The notes beneath the pieces were generated by a model. That model was not told where the DNA came from. It ran no database searches and saw only the letters and a list, made by a program, of their open reading frames with translations. From an uncultured Clostridium sp. (GTDB taxonomy: Bacteria; Bacillota; Clostridia; TANB77; CAG-508), in assembly GCA_946578345.1 (NCBI GenBank), contig CAMOBD010000011.1, forward strand, positions 1 through 36,762: a stretch of DNA of 36,762 nucleotides, read 5' to 3'. Below are positions 26,430 to 33,154 of the stretch, in pieces. Both the position numbers and the translations under genes were made by a program. Positions within the stretch are counted from its first letter, which is position 1. Every line of letters starts with the position of its first letter.

Positions 26430-26660
26430 AGAATTAGTAGAAAGCGCCTGGACGTAGGATTACACGCATTTATGTTTTGTAGTTTAAAGTAAATTATATG
26501 CTACATAAGTATAGACATAAATATACACTAACAACCTACGTTGACGAGGAAGAAACTTATCGAAATATTCGGCGGATGGTTTCTTGGCATCTGATTACTG
26601 CCATAAATATTAGTTAAAAACTGATAGTAATACCAGAACAAAGCTAATAGGGTAATCTTT
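26430..26660 (+). ncRNA. glmS ribozyme (glucosamine-6-phosphate riboswitch)
   Basis: Self-cleaving mRNA leader activated by glucosamine-6-phosphate, lowering glmS expression. The conserved core is visible: AAAGCGCCTGGAC at 26441-26453, GACGAGGAAGAAAC at 26541-26554, ATCGAA and CGGCGGATGG at 26559-26580, then GGCATCTG and GGGTAATC. GGACGTAGG pairs with CCTACGTT to close P2, with a long A/T-rich insertion (about 70 bases) in that arm. Cleavage is expected between A26443 and G26444. The 3' limit is approximate. The sequence from there to the glmS ribosome-binding site shows no gene. Confidence 0.95.
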
Positions 26661-26813: not shown

Positions 26814-28667
26814 ATGTGTGGTATTGTAGGATACGTAGGTAGCAAAAAAGCTACACCTATATTAATTGATGGGCTAATGAGCCTAGAGTACAGAGGTTAT
26901 GACTCTGCAGGTATTGCAACTATTGAAAAAAATGGCGTTAAGGTTATGAAAGATAAAGGAAGAGTTAAAAACTTAAATGATTTAGATGGAATAGATGCTT
27001 TGGAAGGAACAGTTGGTATTGCTCATACAAGATGGGCAACCCACGGAAAACCATCTAAAGAAAACTCTCACCCACATATGGATAATAGTGGTTGCTTTGC
27101 AGTAGTTCATAATGGAATTATAGAAAATTATGCAGATTTAAGAGAATTTTTAAGTTCTAAAGGATATAAATTTTTATCTCAAACAGATACAGAAGTAATT
27201 CCTAATCTAATACATTATTACTATACAAATGGTCCTGTTTCTGTTTTAGATAATGAAGAAGATAAATTTTTAGGTGCTGTAAAATCAGCAGTTTATGATT
27301 TAAAAGGAAGTTATGCTATCGAGGCTATTTACAAAGGTTGCCCTAATGAGGTAGTTGTTGTTAGAAAAGATAGCCCTCTTGTTATAGGAAAAGCTGAGGG
27401 AGAGAATTATATAGCATCTGATATTCCTGCTATATTAAAATACACAAAAGACTTCTATTTACTAGATGATAACGAATTTGCTGTTGTAAAAGGAGAAAGT
27501 GTTAAATTTTATGATAATAGCTTAACAGAGCATAACAAAGCAATAAAGAATATTGAATGGGACGCAAATGCTGCTGGAAAAGACGGATACGAAGATTATA
27601 TGCTTAAAGAGATTTTTGAGCAACCAACTTCTATAAGAGAAACAATCGGTTCAAGATTCCGTTTAGGAGAAAAATGCTCTTTTGATGATATAGAAATCAC
27701 AAAAGAATATCTTAGCACAGTAAACAGAATATATTTTGTAGCTTGTGGAACAGCAATGCATGCTGGATTAGTTGGAAAAACTTTAATGGAAAAACTTTGC
27801 AACATTCCTACTGAAGTTGATATAGCTTCTGAATTTAGATATAGAGACCCAATAATTGATAAACATACTTTATGCATATATATCAGCCAATCTGGAGAGA
27901 CAGCTGATACAATTGCAGCTTTAAAACTTGCTAAATCTAAAGGAGCTAAAACACTTGCTATTTCTAATGTTATAGGAAGCTCTATAACCAGAGAAGCAGA
28001 CTATTCTATATATACGCATGCAGGACCTGAAATAGCTGTTGCATCTACTAAAGCATATACATCTCAAGTAGTGCTAGTTGCAATTTTAGCAATGCATTTT
28101 GCTGAAATTTTAGGAAGCTATGATCAAAAAGCAATTGAAAGTTTAAAAGAAGATATGATAGATTTACCTGCAAAAATAGAACAAATATTAGATAATACAG
28201 AGCCAATTGAAGAATTTGCTAAGAAAGTATATACAGAAAAAGATATGTTCTTCCTTGGAAGAGGAGCTGATTACAGTGTTGCACTAGAAGGCTCATTGAA
28301 ACTAAAAGAAATATCATATATACACTCTGATGCATATGCTGCAGGAGAACTAAAACACGGACCAATTGCACTTATAGAAAATGGAGTTACAGTAATAGGA
28401 ATTATTACTAATCCAAATTTAGTAGAAAAATCAATTAGTAATATTCAAGAGGTAATTACAAGAGGTGCAAAAACACTTATTATTACAAACCAAATACTTC
28501 CAAATAGTCATTTCGATTATGTAATAAACATACCAGAAACAAATCCACTTATCTCTCCTATTTTATCTGTAATACCAATGCAACTTCTTTCTTACTACAT
28601 CTCAAAATTCAAAGGATTAGATGTAGATAAGCCAAGAAATCTTGCAAAATCAGTTACTGTGGAATAG
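26814..28667 (+). CDS. glmS: Glutamine--fructose-6-phosphate aminotransferase (isomerising)
   Basis: Makes glucosamine-6-phosphate from fructose-6-phosphate and glutamine, the first step to UDP-GlcNAc for peptidoglycan. It has 617 residues: an N-terminal class II glutaminase with nucleophile Cys2 (M-C-G-I-V-G-Y), R-G-Y-D-S-A-G and T-H-G-K-P-S, then two SIS isomerase domains with V-A-C-G-T-A and S-Q-S-G-E-T, and the C-terminal A-K-S-V-T-V-E. AAGGAGG precedes the ATG. Controlled by the upstream ribozyme. Family B repeat B6 begins one base after the stop. Confidence 0.98.
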   Translation: MCGIVGYVGSKKATPILIDGLMSLEYRGYDSAGIATIEKNGVKVMKDKGRVKNLNDLDGIDALEGTVGIAHTRWATHGKPSKENSHPHMDNSGCFAVVHNGIIENYADLREFLSSKGYKFLSQTDTEVIPNLIHYYYTNGPVSVLDNEEDKFLGAVKSAVYDLKGSYAIEAIYKGCPNEVVVVRKDSPLVIGKAEGENYIASDIPAILKYTKDFYLLDDNEFAVVKGESVKFYDNSLTEHNKAIKNIEWDANAAGKDGYEDYMLKEIFEQPTSIRETIGSRFRLGEKCSFDDIEITKEYLSTVNRIYFVACGTAMHAGLVGKTLMEKLCNIPTEVDIASEFRYRDPIIDKHTLCIYISQSGETADTIAALKLAKSKGAKTLAISNVIGSSITREADYSIYTHAGPEIAVASTKAYTSQVVLVAILAMHFAEILGSYDQKAIESLKEDMIDLPAKIEQILDNTEPIEEFAKKVYTEKDMFFLGRGADYSVALEGSLKLKEISYIHSDAYAAGELKHGPIALIENGVTVIGIITNPNLVEKSISNIQEVITRGAKTLIITNQILPNSHFDYVINIPETNPLISPILSVIPMQLLSYYISKFKGLDVDKPRNLAKSVTVE

Positions 28668-30195: not shown

Positions 30196-31491
30196 ATGAT
30201 AGACATTAAATTTTTAAGAGAAAATCCAGATGTGGTTAAAGAAAATATCAAAAAGAAATTCCAAGACCACAAATTAGTTTTAGTAGATGAAGTTTTAGAG
30301 CTTGATAAAAAGAACAGAGAAGCCAAATTAAAGGGCGACGATCTACGTATGAGAAGAAATTCTTTAAGTTCTGAAATTGGTAATCTTATGAAGTCTGGTA
30401 AAAAAGATGAAGCAGAAAAAATAAAAGTTCAAGTTCAAGAAATAAATAAAGAATTAGAGGAAAATGAAAAATTAGAAGCAGAATATTCTACTCAAATTAC
30501 AGAAAGAATGATGAAAATTCCAAACATTATTCATGAGTCTGTTCCAATTGGCGAAGATGATAGCAAAAATGTTGAGATTGAAAAATTTGGAGAACCAGTA
30601 GTTCCAGATTATGAAATTCCATATCATGCTGATATAATGGAAAGCTTAAATGGTTTAGACTTAGATTCTGCGCGTAGAGTCGCAGGAAATGGTTTCTATT
30701 ATCTTATGGGAGATGTAGCAAGACTTCACTCTGCTATACTTTCATATGCTAGAGATTTTATGATAAATAAAGGATTTACTTATTGTATTCCACCATTTAT
30801 GATTCGTAGCGATGTAGTAACTGGTGTTATGAGTTTTGAAGAAATGGATGCAATGATGTATAAGATAGAGGGAGAAGATTTGTATTTAATTGGAACAAGC
30901 GAACATTCTATGATTGGAAAGTTCAAAGGACAAATTCTTCAAAAAGCTGATATGCCATATACAATGACATCTTATTCTCCTTGCTTTAGAAAGGAAAAAG
31001 GTGCACATGGTATAGAAGAACGTGGTGTGTACCGTATACATCAATTTGAAAAGCAAGAGATGATAGTTGTATGTGAGCCAGAAGATAGTTGGAAATGGTA
31101 TGACAAATTATGGTCATATACTGTTGAGCTATTTAGAAGCATGGATATTCCAGTACGTACACTTGAATGTTGTAGTGGAGATTTAGCAGATTTAAAAGCT
31201 AAGAGCTGTGATGTTGAAGCATGGAGTCCAAGACAAAAGAAATACTTTGAAGTCGGAAGTTGTTCTAATTTGACAGATGCTCAGGCAAGAAGATTAGGAA
31301 TTAGAATTAAAGGAGAAAAAGGAAATTACTATGCACACACTTTAAACAATACTGTTGTTGCTCCACCACGTATGTTAATTGCATTCTTAGAAAATAACTA
31401 CAATGAAGATGGTAGTATCAATATTCCAGAAGTACTTCGTCCATACATGGGTGGAACTTCAAAATTAGTACCAAAAGGAAAACAACTTTGA
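30196..31491 (+). CDS. serS: Serine--tRNA ligase
   Basis: Class II synthetase charging tRNA-Ser and tRNA-Sec. It has 431 residues from the chosen start: an N-terminal long coiled-coil arm (about 25-105, rich in Lys/Glu) that binds the tRNA variable arm, then the catalytic core with motif 2 F-R-K-E-K-G-A-H-G-I-E-E-R-G-V-Y-R-I-H-Q-F and motif 3 near the end. The start at 30196 (M-I-D-I-K-F-L) has AAGGAG 7 bases upstream; the longer open frame runs through the promoter region. The stop codon TGA lies inside repeat B8. Confidence 0.97.
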   Translation: MIDIKFLRENPDVVKENIKKKFQDHKLVLVDEVLELDKKNREAKLKGDDLRMRRNSLSSEIGNLMKSGKKDEAEKIKVQVQEINKELEENEKLEAEYSTQITERMMKIPNIIHESVPIGEDDSKNVEIEKFGEPVVPDYEIPYHADIMESLNGLDLDSARRVAGNGFYYLMGDVARLHSAILSYARDFMINKGFTYCIPPFMIRSDVVTGVMSFEEMDAMMYKIEGEDLYLIGTSEHSMIGKFKGQILQKADMPYTMTSYSPCFRKEKGAHGIEERGVYRIHQFEKQEMIVVCEPEDSWKWYDKLWSYTVELFRSMDIPVRTLECCSGDLADLKAKSCDVEAWSPRQKKYFEVGSCSNLTDAQARRLGIRIKGEKGNYYAHTLNNTVVAPPRMLIAFLENNYNEDGSINIPEVLRPYMGGTSKLVPKGKQL

Positions 31492-31579
31492 CAAAAGGGA
31501 CACTCAAAAACGTCAAAAAACTTTGACAAAAAAGAGTGTCCCAAAGTGTAAAGAAAAATTGACGAAAAGGAGTGTCCCT
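31487..31579. repeat. Family B foldback repeat, copy B8, between serS and ysxC
   Basis: tttgacaaaagggacactc and tttgacaaaaaagagtgtccc form an inverted pair, followed by ttgacgaaaaggagtgtccct. It contains the serS stop codon and supplies the ribosome-binding site AAGGAG of the next gene. Confidence 0.78.
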
Positions 31580-31580
31580 A

Positions 31581-32168
31581 ATGTTAATCAAAAATCCAGA
31601 ATTTAAGATTTCTGCAGTTAGTCCTAAGCAATATCCAGATGATGGTTTACCACAAATTGTATTGGTAGGCAAATCAAATGTTGGTAAATCATCATTTATT
31701 AATACTATGGTAAATAGAAAAAAATTGGCGAGGACAAGTAGTGAGCCAGGCAAGACTAGACAAATTAATTTTTATAACATGGATAATAAATTCTATTTTG
31801 TAGACCTACCTGGTTATGGCTACAGCAAGATGTCTAAGCAAGAACAAGTAAAGGTTGGAAAGTTTATTGAAGAGTATTTGAATAAGAGTAAAAATATTGC
31901 ACTTATAATCTTTTTAATAGATATAAGGCATTCTCCTACAGAGAATGATAGACTAATGTACAACTATGTTATTAATTCTAACAAGCCTTGTATAATTATC
32001 GCAAATAAAGCTGATAAAATAGCTGTAACAAAAGTAGATGCTCAAGTAAAAGCTTTACAAAATGAACTAAATCCATTAAAAGATTTTACATTCTTTCCAT
32101 ATTCGTCAGAAAGACGTATCTATTCAGATAATATATGGACTGAAATAAAGGCATATATTGACATTTAA
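31581..32168 (+). CDS. engB: Ribosome biogenesis GTP-binding protein YsxC/EngB (YihA)
   Basis: GTPase needed for 50S subunit assembly. It has 195 residues. G1 G-K-S-N-V-G-K-S-S near residue 31, G2 region with P-G-K-T-R-Q, G3 D-L-P-G-Y-G-Y and G4 N-K-A-D; the S-S-E segment near the end is G5. The start ATG at 31581 has AAGGAG 8 bases upstream, inside repeat B8; a GTG three codons earlier is possible but has no good site. The promoter of the next gene overlaps its stop codon. Confidence 0.96.
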   Translation: MLIKNPEFKISAVSPKQYPDDGLPQIVLVGKSNVGKSSFINTMVNRKKLARTSSEPGKTRQINFYNMDNKFYFVDLPGYGYSKMSKQEQVKVGKFIEEYLNKSKNIALIIFLIDIRHSPTENDRLMYNYVINSNKPCIIIANKADKIAVTKVDAQVKALQNELNPLKDFTFFPYSSERRIYSDNIWTEIKAYIDI

Positions 32169-32186
32169 GCTATTTTATGGTATACT
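32158..32186 (+). promoter_or_regulatory. Promoter of the first small twin gene
   Basis: TTGACA (32158-32163), 17 bases, TATACT (32181-32186): near-consensus, overlapping the ysxC stop. Predicted start about 32193, right before the CACGTT hairpin. Confidence 0.87.
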
Positions 32187-32195
32187 ATTTTGTGC

Positions 32196-32211
32196 CACGT
32201 TATTAAACGTG
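32196..32211 (+). promoter_or_regulatory. 5'-terminal leader hairpin of the first twin gene
   Basis: CACGTT-ATTA-AACGTG followed by AGTA; the same stem and the same AGTA follow at 32628-32642 for the second gene. Confidence 0.75.
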
Positions 32212-32229: not shown

Positions 32230-32248
32230 GACCAGAAACACAATGGTC
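32230..32248 (+). promoter_or_regulatory. Start-codon hairpin of the first twin gene
   Basis: GACCA and TGGTC pair (loop of 9 bases), so that the TG of the start codon lies in the stem, just after the Shine-Dalgarno GAAGGGAG. The second twin gene has an analogous, stronger hairpin. Confidence 0.55.
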
Positions 32249-32473
32249 ACTGTAAAATTCTCTGATAGCAATAACGCAAGAATGTTCCACGGAGCCATGG
32301 ATGAGCAATTTCCTTTGCTCATGATAAAAGCTTCTCCAAGCACGTTAACCGGCTCGGATGTTACTGTCACAATTCCTAATGGCAGTGATTTTGGCTACAA
32401 TCAGTCAGAGCTGGAAAGAGTTGTCAGGTCGCTTGCAGCCAACTATCATGGAACTTTTATATCTGTGGCATAA
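32243..32473 (+). CDS. Small protein of unknown function (twin 1)
   Basis: I do not recognise this 76-residue protein. It is soluble-looking, with a beta strand-like start V-T-V-K-F-S-D-S-N-N-A, a central V-T-V-T-I-P-N-G-S and a C-terminal helix S-E-L-E-R-V-V-R-S-L-A followed by H-G-T-F-I. The same pattern (K-F-x-D..A..F, V-x-V-T, L...SLA...G) recurs in the next gene, so the two are probably distant paralogues. G+C is about 43% by hand count, far above ysxC next door (roughly 25% in two sampled lines), with codons such as tcg, agg, ctc and ggc. It has its own promoter, leader hairpin, GAAGGGAG and terminator, so it is likely well expressed. Confidence 0.8.
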   Translation: MVTVKFSDSNNARMFHGAMDEQFPLLMIKASPSTLTGSDVTVTIPNGSDFGYNQSELERVVRSLAANYHGTFISVA

Positions 32474-32493
32474 ATCGATGTTTCGATTTATGC
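32468..32493 (+). other. Hairpin over the stop codon of twin 1
   Basis: GCATAAATCGA and TCGATTTATGC are perfect 11-bp arms with a 4-base loop; the stop codon TAA lies in the left arm. The true terminator follows at 32504. Confidence 0.6.
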
Positions 32494-32503
32494 TCTTCCG
32501 AAG

Positions 32504-32535
32504 CAGAGACTCCTGTGGGGTCTCTGTTAATTTTG
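32504..32535 (+). terminator. Terminator of twin 1
   Basis: CAGAGAC and GTCTCTG with inner CC/GG pairs, followed by TTAATTTT: a strong intrinsic terminator. Confidence 0.85.
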
Positions 32536-32589
32536 CTATTAAAATATTACAATTTTATTCTGATTTATGTAAATTTACTTATGTATCTA

Positions 32590-32618
32590 TTGACTTTACT
32601 GCATATTTGTAATATAAT
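32590..32618 (+). promoter_or_regulatory. Promoter of the second small twin gene
   Basis: TTGACT (32590-32595), 17 bases, TATAAT (32613-32618). Predicted start about 32625, directly before the second CACGTT hairpin. Confidence 0.87.
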
Positions 32619-32627
32619 ATTTGTTAC

Positions 32628-32642
32628 CACGTTTTGAACGTG
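32628..32642 (+). promoter_or_regulatory. 5'-terminal leader hairpin of the second twin gene
   Basis: CACGTT-TTG-AACGTG followed by AGTA, the same stem as at 32196 with a different loop. Confidence 0.75.
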
Positions 32643-32662
32643 AGTACTATTTTTTGGAAGGA

Positions 32663-32678
32663 GGACATTATTATGTCC
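32663..32678 (+). promoter_or_regulatory. Start-codon hairpin of the second twin gene
   Basis: GGACAT-TATT-ATGTCC: a perfect 6-bp stem in which ATG is the start codon and GG is the end of the Shine-Dalgarno AAGGAGG. Likely affects translation initiation. Confidence 0.65.
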
Positions 32679-32924
32679 AAGAAGCCAGCTTATATGTACA
32701 AATTTAATGATGAAACTGCTGCTGCTACTTTCTTAGAGCAGGCAAATCAGCTTCGCGAATCAAAATTTGTGCAGCATCCTATCGATGCAAAAACACAAGT
32801 ACGCGACCCAAAAAAAGTGCTCGTCACTGGCTCTGGGAGCCTCATTTTTGACACCAATCTCAAAAATAAACTTGATAGTCTTGCATCAGAGCTTGATGGC
32901 TCTTACGAGCCCTTAGTTCGCTAA
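32673..32924 (+). CDS. Small protein of unknown function (twin 2)
   Basis: An unrecognised 83-residue protein. It starts M-S-K-K-P-A-Y-M-Y-K-F-N-D-E-T-A-A-A and has K-K-V-L-V-T-G-S-G-S-L-I-F and N-K-L-D-S-L-A-S-E-L-D-G-S-Y, paralleling twin 1 segment by segment. No signal peptide or membrane segment. The start at 32673 follows GGAAGGAGG; an upstream in-frame ATG lies within the leader and has no such site. Codon use is again less A/T-biased than the neighbours (gcg, ctc, cgc, gtg). It is a separate transcription unit with its own promoter and terminator. Confidence 0.8.
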   Translation: MSKKPAYMYKFNDETAAATFLEQANQLRESKFVQHPIDAKTQVRDPKKVLVTGSGSLIFDTNLKNKLDSLASELDGSYEPLVR

Positions 32925-32939
32925 CCTTCCAAACACAAT

Positions 32940-32968
32940 AACCCGAAAGTCCATTGGACTCTCGGGTT
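32940..32968 (+). terminator. Bidirectional terminator between twin 2 and the DUF951 gene
   Basis: AACCCGAAAGTCC and GGACTCTCGGGTT pair (one mismatch) around ATT, between two convergent genes. Confidence 0.8.
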
Positions 32969-32971
32969 CAT

Positions 32972-33154
32972 TTATATGTTCGAGACTTTCTTCACTATCA
33001 TCTTAAGTGCTTTTGGTCTTTCTATCATTATTGTGTGACCGCAACCAAGGCATTTTAGTTTAAAGTCTACTCCTACCCTAGTTATCTCCCACAACTTACT
33101 TCCACAAGGATGCTGTTTTTTTGTTCTAACTACATCTCCAACATTATACTCCAT
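32972..33154 (-). CDS. DUF951 (YyzM-like) small protein
   Basis: The 60-residue protein matches the DUF951 pattern: a beta-rich start V-G-D-V-V-R-T-K-K-Q-H-P-C-G, then W-E-I-T-R-V-G-V-D-F-K-L-K-C and G-C-G-H-T-I-M-I-E-R. Three cysteines (H-P-C-G and C-x-x-C) suggest a zinc site. Function is unknown; it may bind nucleic acid. GGAGG precedes the ATG. Confidence 0.85.
   Translation of the reverse strand: MEYNVGDVVRTKKQHPCGSKLWEITRVGVDFKLKCLGCGHTIMIERPKALKMIVKKVSNI

Follow-up and report, generated by a model that had tools for sequence, protein, structure and literature searches.

Stem-loops at the 5' terminus stabilise Bacillus mRNAs. In B. subtilis, the hairpin at the ribosome binding site of sigG (5 bp, -6.2 kcal/mol) cuts translation 2-4 fold without a known ligand, and translation nearly stops when the hairpin is made stronger (PMC5942855). 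De Smit and van Duin studied the hairpin of the MS2 coat gene, which includes the start codon together with part of the Shine-Dalgarno sequence (SD); in the account given in PMC9894550, expression tracks the stability of this hairpin. High transcription combined with low translation is one known route to precise low doses, which is the topic of PMC6325141. As to genomic context, gut Clostridia carry a hypervariable island of small genes between purF and radC that includes acrIIA22 (PMC8545432). Start-codon hairpins have so far been known singly; here, one lineage seems to build them repeatedly, on different fast-evolving small genes and always together with a strong promoter and a 5' hairpin.

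The window, that is, the whole stretch of 36,762 nucleotides that was analysed, comes from an uncultured Clostridium sp. In it, the engB/ysxC GTPase gene (31578..32168, + strand) and a DUF951 gene (32972..33154, - strand) are the conserved left and right borders of a variable spot, which here holds two small genes that we call twin 1 and twin 2. Elsewhere in the window, a glmS ribozyme (87.6 bits; 26432-26659, +) lies upstream of a 617-aa ORF (26814-28667), and the stretch between serS and engB (31488-31580) contains direct and inverted copies of TTTGACAAAA / GGGACACTC / GAGTGTCCC, possibly a dispersed repeat.

The promoter of twin 1 (TTGACA-17-TATACT with an extended -10 TG; 32158..32186, +) overlaps the end of engB. 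The leader begins with a 5'-terminal hairpin, CACGTT-ATTA-AACGTG (32196..32211, +), followed by AGTA, which also follows the hairpin of twin 2. In the start hairpin (32230..32248, +), GACCA (32230-32234) pairs with TGGTC (32244-32248) across a 9-nt loop, the order being an SD-like GGAAGGGAG, GACCA, the loop GAAACACAA and TGGTC. Of the ATG (32243-32245), the TG is paired and the A unpaired; codon 2 is paired as well. The ORF of 76 aa (32243..32473, +) is followed by an intrinsic terminator with a 12-pair stem (32502..32528, +). For twin 2 we find the promoter TTGACT-17-TATAAT (32590..32618, +), the leader hairpin CACGTT-TTG-AACGTG with its AGTA (32628..32642, +) and a start hairpin (32663..32678, +) that pairs GGACAT (32663-32668) with ATGTCC (32673-32678) across the 4-nt loop TATT; this stem takes in the complete ATG and codon 2 as well as the GG that ends the SD AAGGAGG. 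Behind the ORF of 83 aa (32673..32924, +) there is a 13-pair stem (32940..32968, listed without strand), which is scored as the terminator of the minus-strand DUF951 gene and probably also ends the twin 2 transcript. Both 5' hairpins sit just downstream of predicted transcription starts. The two start hairpins are those that an earlier note on this DNA had described, different in sequence and alike in arrangement.

We asked how unusual such structures are within the genome. At 37 C the ATG of twin 1 is predicted to be unpaired with a probability of 0.35 and that of twin 2 with one of about 0.04. The cost of opening the SD and start is 8.3 kcal/mol (94th percentile) and 10.5 kcal/mol (98th percentile), respectively, as compared with 226 gene starts of the same genome. 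These ordinary gene starts were taken from 400 kb of this one genome, and a start stem was defined as at least 5 Watson-Crick pairs covering at least 2 bases of the start codon. Only one of the 226 has such a stem. When 690 SD-preceded ATG ORFs in 1.14 Mb of the same genome were considered, six were found to carry a start stem of 5 bp or more, twins included; the four non-twin ORFs either match promoters weakly or are set in frame within genes, and the twins are the only ones among the 690 to combine a consensus promoter, a 5'-terminal hairpin and a start stem. In both twins, then, the stem over the start or SD is more stable than is usual for the genome, as it would be in a damping hairpin like that of sigG.

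For a comparison across species we retrieved the DUF951 locus from 30 genomes of the same genus and from 80 further contigs. Note that all genomes compared are metagenome assemblies and that their transcription starts are predicted. The host species of the relatives are gut bacteria, uncultured Clostridia, several of them from chicken and rabbit. The spot between engB and DUF951 is hypervariable: it contains many different small ORFs, none in some species and two in a few, and alignment-based locus searches found no conserved block by which the spot could be recovered. About a dozen of the 30 same-genus genomes carry an orthologue of twin 2 at this position, with 28-49% identity. The closest pairs of this family have dN/dS values of about 0.10-0.15 (0.038/0.365, 0.176/1.40 and 0.197/1.29), which shows that the family is protein-coding and under purifying selection. 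For twin 1 no confident relative was found; the gene at its position in L065 has 26% identity to it in a two-sequence alignment and a homologous leader. Searches of IMG/VR, phages and plasmids returned no relatives, so that a mobile origin is unsupported, although divergence may hide such relatives. Furthermore, a second engB-DUF951 locus with another small gene was seen in the twins' own assembly (L060, contig C114; engB 76% and DUF951 81% identical). It may be a foreign contig, since the assembly is listed at 3.25% contamination.

From these loci we picked 35 small genes by rules on ORF, SD and locus, not on hairpins, and curated the set by hand. Seven ORFs at the same spot in other genera, acidic or long, were left out because they are genes of another kind (L086, L087, L088, L096, L107, L110 and L131). 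Six of them (all except L131) code for acidic proteins of greater length and repetitive look; their SDs are strong and their starts lie outside any such stem. The third codon positions of both twins are richer in G and C (GC3 0.42 for twin 1, 0.39 for twin 2) than those of all 226 background genes (mean 0.18, maximum 0.38); raised GC3 is common to most small genes at the spot.

Start stems of at least 5 bp were found in 17 of the 35 small genes across related Clostridia, as compared with the single case among 226 ordinary starts (Fisher P = 4e-16). None of the seven ORFs left out has one, so that with them the total is 17 of 42. The upstream arms differ, and each fits its own codon 2: GGACAT/ATGTCC, GGTCAT/ATGACC, GCCAT/ATGGC, TGCCA/TGGCA, CGCCA/TGGCG and GACCA/TGGTC. 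Swapping the downstream halves among the genes left on average 5.6 stems instead of 17 (at most 12 in 2000 shuffles). A MAFFT alignment of the leaders leaves the start stems unaligned, and for this reason we tested co-variation by permutation. An upstream CA in register is present in 17 non-redundant small genes, and 14 of these also match codon 2 in at least its first two letters, versus 8 of 109 in the background; permuting codon 2 gave a mean of 5.6 matches (P = 0.0002, a significance that shared ancestry inflates somewhat, as only the closest duplicates were removed and the remaining genes were treated as independent). At codon-2 position 1 the pairs are C-G (8), A-T (6) and T-A (1), and at position 3 G-C (6), C-G (1) and T-A (1). 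Three pair types at each of these positions require several independent double changes. Compensating changes thus keep the pairing in relatives, though not in all, which is the pattern of a damping hairpin. In summary, about half of the small genes found at the homologous locus have the start stem. The earlier note had named a lack of conserved pairing among orthologues as what would refute its reading, and these results speak against such a lack.

The other 18 of the 35 small genes, including some P0002 orthologues (L085, L089 and L011), are without a start stem of at least 5 bp. Some of them, L043, L089 and L114, appear from sequence and folds to hide the SD instead: L043 can pair AGGAgtgTCCT, as read from the sequence, and for L089 folding predicts an SD stem of 9-10 bp. 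The median cost of opening the SD and start is 7.2 kcal/mol for the small genes, as compared with 4.1 for the background, partly because the small genes are higher in G+C; the codon-2 shuffle is free of that bias. The loops of the start stems are A/U-rich, 3-9 nt long and variable in sequence, and share no motif.

The leaders have further properties in common. Nearly all small-gene promoters consist of a TTGAC-type -35, 17 nt and TATAAT, and in 34 of 35 genes the promoter score is 12-14 (background median 10.1). A stable hairpin lies in the first 32 nt in 83% of the small genes versus 23-36% of other promoters of the genome. These 5' hairpins vary in their letters and stay paired, for example CACGTT/AACGTG, CACGAT/ATCGTG, TCAGGT/ACTTGA and ATTCATC/GATGAAT. 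The twins share the hairpin frame CCACG...CGTGAGTA with four genes from other species; in L031a, L031b, L065a, L069, L085 and L043 the CACG/CGTGAGT frame is preserved and the inner pairs have changed. In the twins' own genome, the element CACGTTN(2-8)AACGTGAGTA has just two copies, both in the twin leaders. Another group of genes at the spot (L064, L066, L076, L077, L082, L092, L097, L114 and L060) has a second type of leader, ATGTTCaatAGAAC ... ATTTGTTC...GAACAAAT, in which the GTTC..GAAC and ATTTGTTC..GAACAAAT stems can pair in two mutually exclusive ways.

A search of the leaders with the Rfam 15 covariance models matched no bacterial cis-regulatory family; the families that it did return are unrelated and score at chance level. 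We also built a covariance model of the leader (97 positions), which is essentially a sequence model, as only 3 pairs were retained in its automatic structure. Below about 46 bits its hits therefore mostly reflect promoter plus SD, and these were read singly. Scores above 67 bits occur at the engB-DUF951 locus only. The weaker hits include orphan small ORFs elsewhere with the same layout, and from these we chose examples by eye: GTACATTTCAATGTAC (L181), GGTCATATAATGACC (L185) and GACATTATTATGTC (L182), as well as L179, in which TGTCATTG...CAATGACA pairs from farther upstream. Elsewhere in the genomes of the genus, the orphan small genes L179, L181, L182, L184, L185 and L187 combine a strong promoter with a start or SD that is occluded, and most of them have a 5' hairpin.

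What do the twins code for? Neither protein was assigned to a family by Pfam, NCBIfam, PHROGs or PADLOC. A sub-threshold match of twin 1 to prok_STING (12.3 bits against a cut-off of 27.1) was dismissed. AlphaFold2 predicts a ferredoxin-like fold, beta-alpha-beta-beta-alpha-beta, for twin 2 (pLDDT 83.7) and, less surely, the same topology for twin 1 (pLDDT 75.7, from only 2 sequences). Comparisons with Foldseek and VIA-align gave generic ferredoxin-like matches only (best Foldseek E = 3e-3). The earlier note had called the twins paralogous, which sequence comparison leaves unproven: BLASTP finds nothing at E<=100 and profile-profile comparison gives a probability of 3.4%. Paralogy is argued by the shared leader, the adjacency and the matching predicted topology alone; with these, a common descent of the twins is plausible.

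Control of the twins at the level of translation, by way of the start stem, is well supported by the pattern of recurring and co-varying stems; the stem is almost certainly under selection as a brake, or gate, that sets how often these strongly transcribed genes are translated. This part of the suggestion in the earlier note stands, whereas the effectors that it named fare less well: temperature is disfavoured by a nearly flat predicted accessibility of the ATG, and a protein or small RNA finds no positive support in loops that lack a motif or in orthologues that lack the stem. We lean towards a brake in cis that needs no ligand and that damps a strongly transcribed monocistronic mRNA to a low dose of protein. 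Each twin would be a single-gene unit with a near-consensus sigma-70 promoter, a stable hairpin at the 5' end and a folded start, on which a ribosome would initiate only once the stem of 5-6 bp opens; translation per mRNA would thus be low in spite of strong transcription and a protected 5' end. By analogy with the measured cases, the start hairpin would lower translation of the twins. The 5' hairpin would stabilise the mRNA, and the whole may serve to keep a small, fast-evolving protein at a low and steady dose. If only stability matters, loops are expected to vary in sequence and length; that they do so argues against a conserved binding motif, and an obligatory ligand switch is made less likely by those orthologues that have no stem. 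The ligand-free brake explains the data with fewer assumptions than the named effectors do. On the other hand, a ligand that tightened or loosened the stem would leave an identical footprint in the sequence.

It is possible, if rather unlikely, that the twins are autoregulated, the small ferredoxin-like protein binding its own start hairpin and shutting off translation like a ribosomal protein or a phage coat protein at its operator. The predicted fold has the topology of RRM domains and of ribosomal protein S6, variants of which are among the Foldseek and VIA matches; at this one locus the hairpin evolves fast, as does the protein; and one of 19 locus proteins has a sub-threshold match to Pfam RRM_1 (E = 0.067). 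However, the ferredoxin-like fold is widespread and none of the matches is specific: sequence profiles of RRM or other named ferredoxin-like families gave nothing above cut-off, and among the structural matches designed proteins and HMA domains rank equally high. Moreover, the hairpins have no conserved loop or bulge motif, stem-less orthologues exist, and start stems are also found on unrelated small genes at other loci. In a stronger form of autoregulation, to which we give a small chance, the spot would be a place of diversification: every small ferredoxin-like protein there would recognise the hairpin at its own start codon, and RNA and protein would co-evolve fast. If true, these pairs would be a natural series of orthogonal protein-RNA autoregulators.

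Equally improbable seems a shared trans factor, a small RNA or RNA-binding protein that opens or closes the leaders, possibly via the 5' hairpin. The CACG/CGTGAGT frame, kept in six genes in spite of the inner-pair changes, would fit such a factor, as would the two exclusive pairings of the second leader type. Common descent of the leaders explains the frame, however, and other genes at the spot have entirely different 5' hairpins; besides, the exact CACGTT...AACGTGAGTA occurs just twice in the twins' genome, in the two twin leaders, and strong leader-model hits are confined to the locus.

The remaining explanations fare far worse. Short start stems with A/U loops resemble some RNA thermometers, but the hosts are gut bacteria and an equilibrium calculation gives an unpaired ATG with a probability of 0.024 at 20 C and 0.052 at 50 C for twin 2, and of 0.34 and 0.37 for twin 1, which makes a thermometer very unlikely. 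Just as unlikely are DNA operator sites that overlap the start codon by accident: GGACAT-N4-ATGTCC is an inverted repeat in DNA too, but the letters of the repeat change from gene to gene (GGTCAT/ATGACC, GCCAT/ATGGC, CGCCA/TGGCG, GACCA/TGGTC) and its spacing from 3 to 9, while it is always anchored on the ATG, about 40-70 nt past the predicted transcription start. Chance, or a by-product of strong SDs and common second codons (GGAGG and then ACAT, with TCC or GCA as codon 2, does recur), has next to no probability and is refuted unless the comparison set is unrepresentative, as none of 32 background genes with the same codon-2 dinucleotides has a stem of more than 3 bp and the permutations gave P<=0.0005 (downstream halves) and P = 0.0002 (codon 2).

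These observations point to a class of small genes that are transcribed strongly and translated sparingly. The stems form a natural series on which the effect of a start hairpin on dose could be measured, and the layout may help to recognise genuine small genes that annotation overlooks in metagenomes.

How does the locus compare with the known systems? Like the purF-radC island, it is a short stretch of small ORFs that turn over between two conserved genes in gut Clostridia. It is a different locus, however, and no phage or plasmid relatives were found; AcrIIA22 has 54 aa and a PC4-like fold, whereas the twins are predicted to be ferredoxin-like. Like the stabilising stem-loops of Bacillus, the 5' stems of the twins lie at or next to the predicted transcription start; their stabilising role is putative. 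The twin 2 stem takes in the start codon and part of the SD, as the MS2 coat hairpin does, but MS2 is an RNA phage with a polycistronic RNA and a hairpin of 27 nt. The separate replicase operator of MS2 also contains a start codon and is bound by the coat protein. With sigG, the twins share a short hairpin in the leader of a Firmicute mRNA (5 bp in sigG), conserved as a structure in relatives (PMC5942855). The sigG hairpin pairs the SD with the upstream leader, whereas in the twins the start codon and codon 2 are paired, and the twins have an extra 5'-terminal hairpin that is absent from the sigG account. Finally, sigG is an old, conserved gene, whereas the twins are fast-evolving orphans in a variable locus.
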